Source of the DNA: a virus
Strand: one strand, 5' to 3'
Length of the DNA stretch: 20,747 nucleotides
IMG/VR virus record: IMGVR_UViG_3300027782_000442
Span: 1 to 20,747 of that record
The position numbers were made by a program, and so were the translations under genes. Of this stretch, positions 348 to 8,671 are shown in pieces. Under the pieces are notes generated by a model. That model was not told the DNA's origin and ran no database searches. It saw only the letters and a list, made by a program, of their open reading frames with translations. The number at the start of each line of letters is the position of its first letter. Positions within the stretch are counted from its first letter, which is position 1.

Positions 348-371
348 AGTTTGTTTTATTACGAACAAACT
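348..371. promoter_or_regulatory. Inverted repeat upstream of terS
   Basis: Perfect 8-bp arms AGTTTGTT (348-355) and AACAAACT (364-371) flank an 8-base loop, ending 36 bases before the terS start. No T tract follows on either strand, so it is not a typical terminator. It could be an operator, an mRNA leader hairpin or part of a packaging site. Confidence 0.35.
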
Positions 372-407
372 GCTTGCATATCTAAGGGAATATGAAATAG
401 ATGGGGT

Positions 408-929
408 ATGCCTAAGAGGAAGATTAGTGATCTATCTAAGTCGGTAGCCGCAAATGCAAACAATGTTGGTAACTTCATTGAGAGGCGTGATCCGGCGTTG
501 GCAATTAAGGCACTAGAGATGTTGGCCGAAGGGGAGAGTTTTAATAGCATTAATAAGAAGCTGGGAATGAAGTGGGAAACTGTGGCTCGGCTGAAAGCGC
601 GGCATAAGATGGCTCTCAATGAACGCAGGGCTTCGCTGGCAGAGGATGCCCTAGACATTGTAGAGGGGTTGCGGCTCTTGCAGAAGGAGAAGATGCGGAT
701 GCTAGCGGAAGACCCAGAGCAATTGGCTAGGACTAACATACGAGACCTTACACTTCCGTGGGGGATAGCTAATGATAAGTTCCTGTCGGCTATGGGAGAG
801 AACAGGGTTGTGGTTGAGCATAAGACCAGTGCCCCGAGTTTAGAGGATGCTATGAAGGCTATTGAGCAGGCTAGGGCCAACATGAAGGCGTCGTCTATTG
901 AGGCGGTAGTAACCGAGATAAAGGAATGA
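408..929 (+). CDS. Terminase small subunit-like protein (HTH)
   Basis: The 173-residue product has a helix-turn-helix-like segment at about residues 35-68 (ALEMLAEGESFNSINKKLGM followed by KWETVARLK). A long charged helical stretch (about 75-110) and an acidic helical tail follow. Small terminase subunits have this plan: an N-terminal DNA-binding domain that picks the packaging site, then oligomerisation helices. The stop overlaps the terL start by four bases (ATGA at 926-929), the usual terS-terL coupling. A GGGG run lies a few bases before the ATG, one of the few SD-like sequences in the window. The function rests mainly on position and HTH character, since small subunits diverge strongly; another DNA-binding protein is possible. 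Confidence 0.7.
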   Translation: MPKRKISDLSKSVAANANNVGNFIERRDPALAIKALEMLAEGESFNSINKKLGMKWETVARLKARHKMALNERRASLAEDALDIVEGLRLLQKEKMRMLAEDPEQLARTNIRDLTLPWGIANDKFLSAMGENRVVVEHKTSAPSLEDAMKAIEQARANMKASSIEAVVTEIKE

Positions 930-3505
930 GTTTGCTTTGGGCCTACCATGAAGTGTTGAAGCCGCCGAGTGATGCGGAGCTGGCTTCCATGTCCCCAGAG
1001 GATGTGCTGAAGCTGCATGAGCTCTATCACTCGGCAATTGCGAATAGCAAACGAGATAACTATCGCTATGGCTGGAAGTTGCCGCATTGGAAGGATGCCG
1101 AGGAGTTGATGGCTTTGCATTCCGAGCTTCTGGTTAGCGGAGGCAATCGGTGTCTAGCTGGAGAGCAGGAAGTCTACGATCCCGTGCAAAAGAAAGGCCT
1201 CCGCGTTGATGGAATCACGGAGGCCTTTCATGTTGAGGCGTGGGATGAGTCTACGCAGCAATTTGTGGTAGCTCAAGCCGAGAAGCCTTTTCAAAAGCCT
1301 GCTCAGCGGTTAGTCCGTTTTTCTCTAGCCAATGGACAAACTCTATCTTGCTCGGAGCAACATCTAGTTCTAACTCCTTTTGGATGGAGAGAAGCAGGCT
1401 GGCTAAATGAAGGAATGAGCATTTGCGGGCCTCTGGAAAACCTTTTAGAATTGCGGAAGCCCGAATCCGAGCTAACCCAACCGGAGTCCACTTCGGACAT
1501 TGCCCAGCTAGCGTCTTTGCCAGATGCTTTGCATTTGAGTCAAACAACTCAAGGTTCTCTATCCGATTGTCCTTTTTGTCGTTGTTCTTGTGATGAACGA
1601 CTTCTGTTGGCAGAAGGTTGCGACCCAAGTGTTTCTCCATCACGATCCGATGCTCTTGGATGTATTTCTCCTTTCGGTAGTAGCGACCATCAGCTTTTAT
1701 CCGGCGAGCCTCATTTAGCCTTTGGCATTCAGGATGATCTGGACACCAAATGTGGATATACCCATTCTTATCCACAATCCGTCCGCCTTTCCATTCTGGA
1801 TGCTCTTCGCCAGCGCGGGGACCCGTTCGCTGACACTCTATGCCGTGCTTCCGGCACGCCTTGTAGATCGACTTGGCGCTTATTCGTGGATCGACTTCGG
1901 CAGCTAGTTTGTCGGAAATCTTCTGTTGAGTCCAACCAGCGGAAATCAATCCGCGAATGCTATCAATCGGGTAATCAATGCGATGTTTCATACGGTGTTA
2001 ATAGTGTAGCACACATTCGCATTGTCAAGGTCGATTACCTCCGAAATGATATTGTGTGGGATTTTGAGGTGCCAAAGTACAGGAACTATGTTGCGGGCGG
2101 AGTCATCTCACACAACTCTGGGAAAACGTGCTTTGCCGCCAATGCCATTGTGAAGTCGGCTGTTGAGAACCATAATTCCACCATCATGTGCTTTGCACAG
2201 AATGCGGATGTGTCTATTCGCCAGCAGCAGTCTGCAATCTATGATGCCTTGCCCGAGGAATACAGAGTGAAGGTGCTGGGCACAGAAGAGAACATCTCTT
2301 ACACGCGGAAGAATGGCTTTAGCAAGTCGAGCCTCATCCTGCCTAACAGCAAGAGTTCAATCATCTTCAAGACCTATGCACAGTTCTTGAACAACGACAC
2401 CATACTTGAAGGTGCTGAGTTGGGATGCCGCGATCCTAAATGGCTCAACATTGGAGCGTGGTGCGACGAGTATTTGATTGGGCCTGAGCTTCTGGCTACG
2501 CTACGGTTCCGCTTGGCTACACGCAATAGCAAGCTTGTGGTTACGTTTACGCCCATTGATGGCTACACAGAGGTTGTGCGTGACTATGTGCAGGGGGCTG
2601 AGACGTTGCGTTCTAAGGAGGCAGAGCTTCTTTCTGGACGTGCCGTGCCCTATTTGCAGAAGTCTAAGAATCGTGATGCTGGCATCATCTACTTCCACAG
2701 CAAAGACAATCCCTTTGGAGGATATGAGCGTATCTCAAAAGACTTGGCTGGTAGACCGGAGAATGAGATTCTAACCCGTGCGTATGGCATTGCAACGAAG
2801 TCAATGTCCACGAAGTTCCCCAACTTTTCCCGCGAGGTGAACGTCATTCCCCATGAGAAGATTGACCTAAAGAACAAGACCAAGTATATGGTTCTTGATC
2901 CTGCTGGCAGAAAGAACTGGTTCATTTGCTGGGTGGCTATTGACGAAAGCGACACTTGGTTTGTCTATCGTGAATGGCCGGACAGCAACGTAGGTGATTG
3001 GGCTAAGTGGCATGGCGGCAAGTGGTCAAGCGGAGAGGCCGCAAAGGGACTAGGCTATGGCATCAAGGACTATGTTGAGTTAATCACCGGAATGGAGTCT
3101 GAGACAAACGACATCATTTTTGAGCGGCTTATTGACCCACGGCTAGGTGCTGCCAAGTACCAGACGCAAGAGGGCGCGTCGTCCATCATAGAAGACCTAT
3201 CGGATGCTGGGCTTGTGTTCATTCCCGCTCCCGGCATTGACATTGAGGATGGGCTTCAAGCGTTGCAGACCAAGATGTCTTACAACAAGAAGAAGCCAAT
3301 TGATTCAATCAATAGACCGCATTTCTATATTTCAGATAGATGCCAAAACATCATATCGGCATTGCAGGAATACACAGCAGAGGGCGGGCAAGAAGAAGCT
3401 TGGAAAGACCCTATTGATGTGATACGATACTTGGCGGTGAGCGGGGCTAATTATGTTTCTCCAGATTCTATGAAAACCAAGGTTGTATCACAAGGCGGCT
3501 ACTAA
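926..3505 (+). CDS. terL: Terminase large subunit, precursor containing an intein
   Basis: The 859-residue precursor carries an intein at residues 76-397; splicing would leave a 537-residue terminase, a normal size. After splicing, the N-extein end SGGNR joins SGKT to give Walker A (GGNRSGKT). Walker B is AWCDEYL (D514, E515), the coupling motif is VVTFTP (about 538-543), and likely nuclease acidic residues are D658 (MVLDPAG), D737 (RLIDPRLG) and D828/D831 (DPIDVIRY). The protein packages phage DNA into proheads through the portal and cuts concatemers. Because the intein splits the ATP-binding loop, unspliced protein should be inactive as a motor. It overlaps terS by four bases and the next gene by one (TAATG). 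Confidence 0.95.
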   Translation: MSLLWAYHEVLKPPSDAELASMSPEDVLKLHELYHSAIANSKRDNYRYGWKLPHWKDAEELMALHSELLVSGGNRCLAGEQEVYDPVQKKGLRVDGITEAFHVEAWDESTQQFVVAQAEKPFQKPAQRLVRFSLANGQTLSCSEQHLVLTPFGWREAGWLNEGMSICGPLENLLELRKPESELTQPESTSDIAQLASLPDALHLSQTTQGSLSDCPFCRCSCDERLLLAEGCDPSVSPSRSDALGCISPFGSSDHQLLSGEPHLAFGIQDDLDTKCGYTHSYPQSVRLSILDALRQRGDPFADTLCRASGTPCRSTWRLFVDRLRQLVCRKSSVESNQRKSIRECYQSGNQCDVSYGVNSVAHIRIVKVDYLRNDIVWDFEVPKYRNYVAGGVISHNSGKTCFAANAIVKSAVENHNSTIMCFAQNADVSIRQQQSAIYDALPEEYRVKVLGTEENISYTRKNGFSKSSLILPNSKSSIIFKTYAQFLNNDTILEGAELGCRDPKWLNIGAWCDEYLIGPELLATLRFRLATRNSKLVVTFTPIDGYTEVVRDYVQGAETLRSKEAELLSGRAVPYLQKSKNRDAGIIYFHSKDNPFGGYERISKDLAGRPENEILTRAYGIATKSMSTKFPNFSREVNVIPHEKIDLKNKTKYMVLDPAGRKNWFICWVAIDESDTWFVYREWPDSNVGDWAKWHGGKWSSGEAAKGLGYGIKDYVELITGMESETNDIIFERLIDPRLGAAKYQTQEGASSIIEDLSDAGLVFIPAPGIDIEDGLQALQTKMSYNKKKPIDSINRPHFYISDRCQNIISALQEYTAEGGQEEAWKDPIDVIRYLAVSGANYVSPDSMKTKVVSQGGY
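1188..1229 (-). terminator. Antisense rho-independent terminator of the HNH gene, inside the intein
   Basis: A perfect 12-bp inverted repeat, GAAAGGCCTCCG (1192-1203) and CGGAGGCCTTTC (1218-1229), has a 14-base loop. Read on the minus strand the stem ends in CCTTTC and runs into TTTTG (1191-1187), a terminator tail. Read on the plus strand it is followed by ATGTTGAGG, with no T tract. It begins 21 bases after the HNH stop codon (1251-1253). The same DNA encodes intein residues just after block A on the sense strand. Confidence 0.8.
1251..1991 (-). CDS. HNH homing endonuclease nested antisense in the terL intein
   Basis: The 246-residue product has an HTH-like N-terminus (residues 8-50, with GLISAGWTQQKISDKLA), a linker typical of phage HNH enzymes (HPEWKGGRIVDKNGYIHIW, 64-82) and an HNH_3-type core at 112-156: QEHRIVMEKH, then EVVHHKNNDKKDNRIENLELF and DSNAKH. 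Likely catalytic or metal residues are among His114, His133/His134, Asn142, Asn146 and His156. Such enzymes nick or cut an unoccupied target so that the element is copied in; here the target should be intein-free terL. The start is fixed by an in-frame TAA three codons upstream (1998-2000). No SD is seen. The last 60 or so residues lie opposite the intein N-terminal splicing segment and may be a fortuitous extension. The gene lies wholly inside the intein. Confidence 0.93.
   Translation of the reverse strand: MKHRIDYPIDSIRGLISAGWTQQKISDKLAAEVDPRISAKSIYKACRKHGIECQRTGPRAGEEHPEWKGGRIVDKNGYIHIWCPDHPECQRLNEARRIKADGRYYRKEKYIQEHRIVMEKHLGRNLLPTEVVHHKNNDKKDNRIENLELFDSNAKHLAKTLAGQCPKWTPVGLARIRASAILKGFPEARKCSFLHLASLLLSIQKELELDVAPSKIEFVHWLEKNGLTAEQAFEKASRLELPQIAA
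2001..2028 (-). promoter_or_regulatory. Candidate promoter for the antisense HNH gene
   Basis: On the minus strand a perfect TTGACA (2028-2023) is followed by an extended -10-like TGCTACACT (2011-2003), but the spacer to TACACT is only 14 bases. CACTAT (2006-2001) at 16 bases is an alternative. Either would start transcription within a few bases of the HNH ATG (1991), giving a near-leaderless message. The site lies in DNA encoding the intein C-terminal splicing blocks. The -10 is weak. Confidence 0.4.
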
Positions 3506-6602: not shown

Positions 6603-7691
6603 ATGTCAAACGAAGTTCCAACGGCTAGCGCAGGAGCCGACCAAAAACCTGTGGTTAAGAATATATCTAGTAGCGAGCTAGTCGCTATGCGGTATCGGTC
6701 TATGTCTGATGCTCAAAAGGCGCAAAATCCGCCCAAACAGCAGCAGCAAGAGACCAAAGAGGTGGTTCCCGATGACACGGAAGCTCCAAAGGAAGAGGTG
6801 CGGCAAGAAGAGCCTGCTCCAATTTCTTCGGAACCAAATGTCAAAGAGGAACAAAGAGTTCTTTCTAAGGACGTTGATTTGGATTCCATGAGTGAGATAG
6901 AGCTTAGAGAGCTTTCCCAGAAACTCGGTAGCAAGGCTGTTGCCCGTTACGGTGAGCTAACCGCAAAACGAAAAGCTGCTGAGGAACAGTTGGAAGCTCT
7001 CAAGGCCGACATCGCTAAACGTAGTTCAAACCAGTTAGAAGCCACGGTTAAGGACAATCCTTATGCCAACATTGACAATGCTACTGACCTAAAGTCTAAG
7101 TATCAAGAAGTCACTGAGGTTATCGACTGGGCCGACGAATTGCTCGAAAAGGGCGAAGACCTCGGGGCCGAAGATGTTCTGACAAACGTCAACGGCAAGG
7201 ATTACAGCAAGCGCGAAATCAAGGACGCACTACGCAAAGCCCGAAAAGCTAAGGAAATCTACTTGCCCGATCAGGACAAGCAGATTAAAGTCGGAGAAGA
7301 ACGAAAGTCCTTCAAAGAAGCCTTGGTTAATCAGGCTAAAGCGGAGCTTCCTTGGTTGCAGGGAGAAGACAATGATGTGCGAAAGCAGTATGAGGCAATG
7401 ATTAGTGACGGGCGATTGAAGGACATCGAAAAGATGATTCCTGAACTTGCGCCGCAACTGCCCTACTTGTTGGCCCACGCAGCCAATAGCCTGTATGCAC
7501 GTCGCTCCGTTGACGTAAAACAATCGTCACGCATCTCCCCGCCATCTCCAGTGGTTAGCCAATCAGCAGATTCCAATAAGCCTGAAACCCGTCAGTCTAA
7601 GGCTTTAACTGATCTCTCCAGCCGCTTCGGTAAAAGCGGTAGCTACAAGGACTTCAAAGCAATTCGTGCTCTTCAACACTCTAAAATCTAA
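6603..7691 (+). CDS. Scaffolding protein
   Basis: The 362-residue product lies between portal and coat and is highly charged. Residues 40-90 are Gln/Glu/Pro-rich and probably disordered; about 95-140 is coiled-coil-like (EIELRELSQKLGSKAVARYG, then ELTAKRKAAEEQLEALKADI); the middle is helical and acidic; the C-terminus is basic (SKALTDLSSRFGKSGSYKDF followed by KAIRALQHSKI). This disordered-helical pattern with a basic C-terminal coat-binding tail fits scaffolds that guide procapsid assembly and leave before or during packaging. It ends five bases before the coat gene. Assignment rests on composition and position, not on a recognised sequence motif. Confidence 0.75.
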   Translation: MSNEVPTASAGADQKPVVKNISSSELVAMRYRSMSDAQKAQNPPKQQQQETKEVVPDDTEAPKEEVRQEEPAPISSEPNVKEEQRVLSKDVDLDSMSEIELRELSQKLGSKAVARYGELTAKRKAAEEQLEALKADIAKRSSNQLEATVKDNPYANIDNATDLKSKYQEVTEVIDWADELLEKGEDLGAEDVLTNVNGKDYSKREIKDALRKARKAKEIYLPDQDKQIKVGEERKSFKEALVNQAKAELPWLQGEDNDVRKQYEAMISDGRLKDIEKMIPELAPQLPYLLAHAANSLYARRSVDVKQSSRISPPSPVVSQSADSNKPETRQSKALTDLSSRFGKSGSYKDFKAIRALQHSKI

Positions 7692-7696
7692 CTATC

Positions 7697-8671
7697 ATGG
7701 CTTTTTCTAATACTTATAATGTTACTAATCCCGGCTCTGGGGTCTCCAATCGCGAAGACCTCACGGACGTTCTGACCATTCTGGCCCCCGAAGAGACTCC
7801 CGTTCTCTCGTTGGCTAACAAAAGCAAGGCTACGGCCACCTTCAATGAGTGGACTGTGGACACGCTGGCTACGCCATCGGCCACTGGCATTCAGGAGGGC
7901 GCGGATATTTCCTCCTTCACTGACAAGTTCACTGGCCGCGCTCGTCTCGGCAATTACATCCAACTGTTTCGCCGTGACTTCATGGTGAGCCAGCTCCAAC
8001 AGGCCGTTGAGTCGGTTGGTCCGGCTAAACTTGCCGAGGCCGAGGCGAAAGGCGTCCGCGAAATCAAGCGCGATATGGAAAAGGTGCTTTGCGGCGATCA
8101 AGACCGCTCGGTTGAAGACGGTTCTTCGGCCCGTTATGTCAGCCGTGGTTTGGGTCTCTGGACCTCTAACACGCCCGGCTCTGACGTTCCAAGCGGTTTC
8201 CGTACCCCCACCGCTTCCATTCATGGAACTGGCACGTTTACGGAAAATGCCCTCAACGGTTTGATTGCCTCCATCTACACGCAAACTGGTACGATTAACA
8301 AGCTCTCGCTTGTCGCTGGTACGGTTCTTCGTCGTACGATTAGTGGTTTTGCCCGTTCGGACAACAATAGTGCGGAAAGCGTCTATCACGTCAATCAAAT
8401 GGCGACTGACAAGGAAATCACGCTTGCAGTGAATACCTATGACAGCGACTTTGGCATCATTACGGTGATTAACGGCAATCCAGCGTGCTTGCCAGATTCG
8501 TCCCGTGGCTACATCATCAATCCCGACTATATCGGTGTTGCTGAGTTGATGAGCCTTGGTTCGACTCGGGTTCCCGATCAGGGTGGTGGTCAACGTGGGT
8601 TTGTTGACGCTGCTGCTGGTCTTCAGGTCTTCAGTCCTCTTGCCCACGGCAAGATTACTGTTGTCGCCTAA
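7697..8671 (+). CDS. Major capsid protein (SU10/DUF5309-like, HK97 fold)
   Basis: The 324-residue product follows the scaffold. The N-terminus (NREDLTDVLTILAPEETPVL then SLANKSKATATFNEWTVDTL) and the segment LGNYIQLFRRDFMVSQLQQ, then EIKRDMEKVLCG, match the SU10-type major capsid family (DUF5309), an HK97-fold lineage, as I recall it. It should form the icosahedral shell. Codon use appears biased as in a highly expressed gene: the opposite strand stays open for almost the whole length, because sense TTA, CTA and TCA codons are almost absent. No SD lies before the ATG; the context is CTAACTATCATGG. A strong terminator follows 17 bases after the stop. Confidence 0.88.
   Translation: MAFSNTYNVTNPGSGVSNREDLTDVLTILAPEETPVLSLANKSKATATFNEWTVDTLATPSATGIQEGADISSFTDKFTGRARLGNYIQLFRRDFMVSQLQQAVESVGPAKLAEAEAKGVREIKRDMEKVLCGDQDRSVEDGSSARYVSRGLGLWTSNTPGSDVPSGFRTPTASIHGTGTFTENALNGLIASIYTQTGTINKLSLVAGTVLRRTISGFARSDNNSAESVYHVNQMATDKEITLAVNTYDSDFGIITVINGNPACLPDSSRGYIINPDYIGVAELMSLGSTRVPDQGGGQRGFVDAAAGLQVFSPLAHGKITVVA

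Follow-up and report, generated by a model that had tools for sequence, protein, structure and literature searches.

In the viral DNA analysed here (the window, 20,747 nucleotides), the terminase gene terL very probably carries a mobile intein served, for homing into intein-free terL, by an endonuclease that has its own gene on the opposite strand. In the usual view of mobile inteins a single polypeptide has both activities, such that the dose and timing of the endonuclease are tied to the host protein; the antisense arrangement uncouples the endonuclease from it. The arrangement is present in well over a hundred different phage or prophage sequences; it is real, widespread, and apparently undescribed. 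The features of the window are as follows.

926 to 3505, plus strand: terL precursor gene, an open frame of 859 aa comprising N-extein, intein and C-extein
1151 to 2116, plus strand: intein of 322 aa (CLAGEQ...ISHN), Pfam Intein_splicing 4.3e-11, predicted Hint fold like solved inteins
1151 to 1435, plus strand: N-terminal splicing part, blocks A and B, with Cys1 and His71, pLDDT >90 over most of it
1451 to 1999, plus strand: sense linker, intein residues 101-283, opposite the HNH gene, predicted disordered, diverging faster than the HNH
2003 to 2116, plus strand: C-terminal splicing part, blocks F and G, His-Asn then Ser+1, TIGR01443 match, pLDDT >90
1251 to 1991, minus strand: gene for the putative HNH homing endonuclease, 246 aa, ATG start, helical N-terminal region then HNH_3 domain
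2023 to 2028, minus strand: TTGACA, an exact match to the -35 consensus, 37 nt upstream of the HNH ATG
2046 to 2075, minus strand: alternative promoter-like pair TTGGCA-18-TATCAT, 10/12 matches, P 0.036 versus synonymous shuffles
1186 to 1229, minus strand: terminator-like hairpin ~22 nt past the HNH stop, a stem of 14 bp followed by TTTT, -32.1 kcal/mol

An intein in the Walker A motif of TerL

A preliminary description of this DNA, made from the sequence alone, had proposed intact intein splicing blocks on the plus strand, and a sense frame open across all 741 bp opposite the HNH gene. Both proposals hold, in that the plus strand has a Pfam intein match and an intein of the form Cys1...His-Asn|Ser, and the terL frame is uninterrupted from 926 to 3505. 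The C-extein can be aligned with the intein-free TerL of phage C75C1 and of viral relatives. The intein, which starts with Cys at nt 1151 and ends with His-Asn at nt 2116, followed by Ser, is located inside the Walker A motif of TerL (GGNR|SGKT); the joined exteins read GGNR-SGKT, identical to the sequence in intein-free relatives, so excision would restore the motif. The Walker A site is uninterrupted, and without an HNH there, in 76 of 80 close TerL relatives, as expected of an in-frame insertion.

The residues of a class 1 intein, i.e. Cys1, the block B His, the penultimate His, the terminal Asn and Ser+1, are all found in the window. The block B His (His71) is invariant in 20 relatives; Cys1 and His-Asn served as the rule by which inteins were extracted, and the invariance of these two among relatives is thus not independent. 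The TIGR01443 match of the C-terminal splicing part is close to the curated limit. The predicted Hint fold has 24 matches to solved inteins at E ≤ 0.001, e.g. 4o1r and 3ifj, and the AlphaFold prediction for the sense intein has pLDDT >90 for approximately residues 1-90 and 290-322, and <50 for almost all of residues 101-283. Sequence and modelling evidence together identify the sense product as a class 1 (Hint) intein with predicted self-splicing.

No endonuclease family was matched by the sense product in Pfam, PHROG and other profile searches, in agreement with the earlier claim that the linker carries no endonuclease motif, and the endonuclease domain that canonical mobile inteins have between blocks B and F of the same polypeptide is absent. 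Nor was any Rfam intron matched at E ≤ 1 between 900 and 2400, where a group I ribozyme was looked for. No relatives of the sense intein of the window were found in the phage collection at E 0.01.

The antisense HNH gene

Profile searches, which the preliminary description had suggested for both strands, matched Intein_splicing on the plus strand and HNH_3 on the minus strand. The 246-residue open frame is confirmed to lie wholly antisense between the intein splicing blocks, and because it is encoded on the opposite strand the enzyme is, as had been claimed, a protein separate from the TerL polypeptide. It had been described as an HTH-HNH enzyme. The HNH assignment is well founded, with a Pfam HNH_3 match of 7.6e-11 (residues 114-150, above the curated cut-off), PHROG HNH families matched at E down to 1.2e-20, and a motif of the form EVVHHKNN...DNR...SNAKH; the HTH assignment is weakly backed, by a match at E 0.0015 to an IS630 transposase model, in its HTH part, and by three predicted helices in the N-terminal part. 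Residues H133, H134, N142, N146, N153 and H156 are conserved in 20 relatives, position 133 being Asp in the Koroua/PHS3 clade described below. The AlphaFold prediction of the HNH has a mean pLDDT of 88.6, and its top match in a fold search is the HNH enzyme I-HmuI, albeit weakly (E 0.55, probability 0.91); a PDB sequence search with the HNH returned nothing relevant.

Two frames held open by selection

The length of an antisense open frame is alone no evidence in this DNA, since a long one (7688-8647, minus strand, 319 aa, in another codon phase) lies opposite the major capsid gene and is probably spurious. An antisense open frame opposite the small terminase gene (359-1120, minus strand) is also probably spurious. 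When the HNH codons of the window were permuted, the sense frame stayed open in 0 of 3000 shuffles, with a mean of 7.3 stops gained; permutation of the sense codons left the HNH frame open in 3 of 3000. Shuffling the HNH in 24 non-redundant relatives gave an open sense frame in 0/3000 for 22 and in 2/3000 for the other two. As neither frame stays open by chance in such shuffles, both are held open by selection. The codon phase is identical in all 24 relatives, HNH positions 1/2/3 lying opposite sense positions 1/3/2.

Summed over seven separate pairs, 259/189/568 substitutions fall at HNH positions 1/2/3, i.e. they concentrate at the HNH wobble position, which is sense position 2. In these pairs the fewest changes are at sense position 3 and the most at sense position 2, the reverse of constraint at the level of a sense protein. 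Between the window and L003 the HNH is 83% identical and the sense product over the same stretch 65%; for L012 the values are 69% and 37%, and in all pairs listed the HNH is at least as identical as the sense product. The HNH is under purifying selection, which acts on its amino acids. The substitution pattern, taken with the gap in identity, indicates that the sense linker must stay open, with no particular sequence apparently being required of it; the predicted fold of the HNH and the predicted disorder of the linker agree with the HNH as the constrained frame. Among homologues it is thus the HNH frame that is conserved and the sense linker that drifts, rather than a broken HNH frame facing a linker conserved as protein, and the HNH profile matches to the minus-strand product are strong; the absence of such matches, or the reverse pattern of conservation, had been named in the preliminary description as grounds for rejecting it.

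Recurrence among viral loci

Reverse-strand HNH genes in the terminase inteins of other phages, for which the preliminary description had suggested a search, proved to be common. The window HNH as query brought up nine viral loci, each of which shares the anatomy, and a profile scan of viral loci found the same arrangement and codon phase in 37 of 39. In a wider profile scan both splicing blocks lie opposite the HNH in 112 of 117 HNH-derived loci; of the other five, three show just the C block and two, which are distant HNH genes, show neither; a scan for a second clade, using Koroua and PHS3 queries, gave 80/80 loci nested antisense in a terminase-type intein in the same phase, these locus counts including metagenomic near-duplicates (the 238 loci hold 144 distinct HNH sequences). 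Every insertion context belongs to the terminase Walker A type. A search of plasmids gave only partial HNH matches.

A scan with the N-terminal splicing block, which is blind to the HNH, found 79 inteins with both blocks, of which 69 are full-length with an antisense HNH and 10 are mini-inteins (130-152 aa, two keeping HNH remnants); a same-strand HNH was found in 0 of the 79. All of the extracted full-length inteins keep an antisense HNH open frame of at least 157 aa. In two mini-inteins, of 148 and 136 aa (L122 and L139), an antisense HNH profile match remains, these being probable remnants of endonuclease loss. A further intein (L022, 3752-4384, reverse strand) has 211 aa and is without the block B region, the antisense HNH being open with an altered C terminus; it may reflect an internal deletion or an assembly join.

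Cultured phages, bacterial genomes and annotation

The second clade, the HNH of which is ~36% identical to that of the window, is carried by eight Pectobacterium/Dickeya phages (Koroua and relatives) and by Pseudoalteromonas phage PHS3, anatomy and phase having been read directly for Koroua, and anatomy only for PHS3. Bacterial genome contigs scanned with the window clade gave nothing; scanned with the second clade they gave seven loci, six of them with the arrangement, the carriers including Enterobacter cloacae DSM 26481 and an Acinetobacter. A prophage of E. coli MEI003 carries the antisense HNH in a terminase intein, and E. coli ET729 has an uninterrupted allele. One locus from a bacterial MAG (L368, 2313-4829) combines an intein N block resembling the window clade with an HNH that was found with the second clade, and may bridge the two.

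The antisense overlap defeats gene callers. In Koroua (L280, 1047-3311) only the TerL precursor is annotated, as hypothetical, and the HNH is omitted; in PHS3 (L281, 1043-3167) the HNH and a truncated TerL are annotated; in the RefSeq annotation of E. coli MEI003 (L370, 2601-5009) the HNH is kept and TerL is flagged as an incomplete pseudogene. The arrangement thus explains a systematic annotation error in which genes essential for packaging are misread. The paper on the Ymer genus makes no mention of an intein, HNH or homing.

Mobility

An empty allele (L042) has a C-extein 99% identical to that of the window and no intein. Its DNA differs from that of the window at 34 positions in the first 300 nt beside the site and at 28 in the 1080 beyond (Fisher 5e-9), and the near/far difference ratio of 4.4 is greater than in all 67 empty-empty control pairs (maximum 3.1). 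In sequence terms this divergent tract, a single case, has the appearance of the co-conversion trace that is expected beside a homing site. Two other loci (L261 and L263) have inteins that are 99.8% identical in TerL genes that are ~82% identical on both sides. A near-identical TerL without the insert, together with near-identical inteins in divergent terL genes, indicates that the element is mobile between alleles. Distance correlations among HNH, intein and extein (0.78, 0.75 and 0.63) were set aside as evidence of co-inheritance, as they distinguish it poorly from vertical descent.

Predicted expression signals in the intein

Of 24 representatives, 17 have an exact TTGACA upstream of the HNH, 34-39 nt from its start. 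In the window the -10 element that follows is weak (CACTAT, 16-nt spacer), relatives being closer to consensus, and the best promoter-like pair is TTGGCA-18-TATCAT. Many representatives have a TATNAT-like box ending 6-11 nt before the HNH start, without a Shine-Dalgarno sequence, which would be the pattern expected of a leaderless message; in other subclades a promoter-like pair is found 55-70 nt upstream of the HNH, together with a proper Shine-Dalgarno sequence. No Shine-Dalgarno sequence is present at the usual distance before the HNH of the window. The sense codons under TTGACA vary by subclade (IVK, VKW and, in another phase, LS-I/N), a point in favour of selection on the DNA. Promoter scores compared with synonymous shuffles fail to reach significance for L018, L028 and L031. 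Overall, most relatives have a predicted sigma-70-like promoter just upstream of the HNH.

The stretch containing the terminator-like hairpin of the window has a z of -5.4. Similar hairpins are present in L003, L005 and L012 (P 0.000-0.013 versus synonymous shuffles), with a compensating base-pair change in L005; a conserved terminator, when sought across the 24 representatives, holds only in the window and these three loci. In the window subclade the intein could contain the whole unit of promoter, gene and terminator. The preliminary description had suggested that the enzyme could be made early and independently of the late TerL, and this is plausible because a promoter-like element lies upstream of the HNH in most relatives and a terminator-like hairpin is present in the subclade of the window.

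An Rfam ctRNA match overlapping the hairpin was rejected as below threshold (28.5 bits, versus a gathering score of 50). A GGAGGT ~50 nt before the HNH start (2030-2060, minus strand) is followed by a short out-of-frame ORF that overlaps this start, and could encode a leader peptide or be due to chance. At 1-115 of the window, upstream of the small terminase gene, there is an AT-rich region with repeated TATACTA, then G runs.

Mechanism and alternatives

The explanation that best fits these results is that of an intein which homes by means of an enzyme encoded on its other strand. The plus strand would give the TerL precursor, from which the Hint domain would excise itself together with a functionless linker, so restoring the Walker A motif and a functional TerL. 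The minus strand would give the HNH endonuclease, probably from its own promoter inside the region coding for the C terminus of the intein, and in this subclade the transcript would end at the hairpin inside the region coding for its N terminus. The HNH would recognise insert-free terL and cut it at its Walker A codons; repair of the cut, with a copy that has the intein as template, would insert the element, i.e. homing. The observations further lean towards these elements being an old and separate class of mobile inteins that is widespread at the Walker A motif of terminases, in which splicing and homing are split between the strands and the endonuclease is a self-contained transcription unit with a host-type promoter, independent of the late gene that has been invaded.

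It is scarcely conceivable that the antisense HNH frame is spurious or decayed and the sense linker the functional sequence; spurious long antisense ORFs do occur in the window, e.g. opposite the capsid gene, but they do not account for the HNH profile matches, for substitutions being absorbed at HNH wobble positions while the sense linker drifts, or for the retention of the antisense ORF by full-length inteins. A role for the HNH as a packaging co-factor of the terminase, its location in terL then being a matter of gene packing, is very unlikely; phages are known to have HNH proteins that act together with terminases (cited in PMC11855218), but almost all close TerL relatives do without an HNH at the site, and the element moves between divergent TerL genes and decays to mini-inteins.

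The antisense transcript might instead serve mainly to regulate TerL, as an antisense RNA delaying a late gene, with the enzyme being secondary. Any HNH mRNA would be fully complementary to the terL mRNA, and the promoter-like and terminator-like elements in the intein would define such an RNA; the selection on HNH amino acids and the persistence of mini-inteins without the antisense gene nevertheless make this very improbable as the main function. Antisense regulation of TerL could be true in addition to homing.

Over >700 bp, each strand of these elements codes for a protein unrelated to that of the other, and a single codon phase is kept across very different TerL genes. They offer a clean example from nature of two genes fully overlapping in antisense, with both functions known in kind, and as cultured carriers exist the arrangement is open to experiment now.

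Comparison with known systems

No description of an antisense endonuclease in an intein was found in the searchable literature, a provisional result in that most subscription journals lay outside the search; the closest parallels, none of them among inteins, are a same-strand element, ShiLan, and the antisense endonuclease genes that some rDNA group I introns contain. In 2009 Dassa et al. reportedly described fractured genes in which split inteins are accompanied by a separate endonuclease gene; there too the endonuclease is encoded apart from the intein polypeptide, but its gene lies between the split halves, whereas that of the window overlaps one contiguous intein.

Canonical phage inteins, including that in the dCTP deaminase of cyanophage CL131, which has an in-frame HNH_3 (PMC6293099), and the mobile terminase inteins of mycobacteriophage TerL (PMC5050341), resemble the element of the window in having a Hint splicing domain, a sporadic distribution, and insertion in conserved motifs of phage genes, the TerL ATPase included; the CL131 intein also shares the HNH_3 type of enzyme. 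By contrast, their enzyme domain is part of the same polypeptide, whereas the enzyme of the window has its own gene, on the other strand.

The ShiLan element of actinobacteriophage methylases has a same-strand, out-of-frame HNH with no splicing domain found (PMC11855218). Like the element of the window, it hides an HNH in an insertion that is open in the frame of the host gene, and moves between phages. However, its HNH is on the same strand, in the third frame, whereas in the window the HNH is on the minus strand and a recognisable intein with a Hint domain is present. Group I introns of nuclear rDNA that carry a His-Cys endonuclease gene in antisense, e.g. Dsq.L2066 (PMC9548176), are similar in that a self-splicing element contains an antisense homing endonuclease gene expressed from the opposite strand. 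They differ in that the element is an RNA intron in a eukaryotic rRNA gene and the enzyme is of another family; since the host gene encodes rRNA, there is no second protein frame to keep open, as there is in terL.
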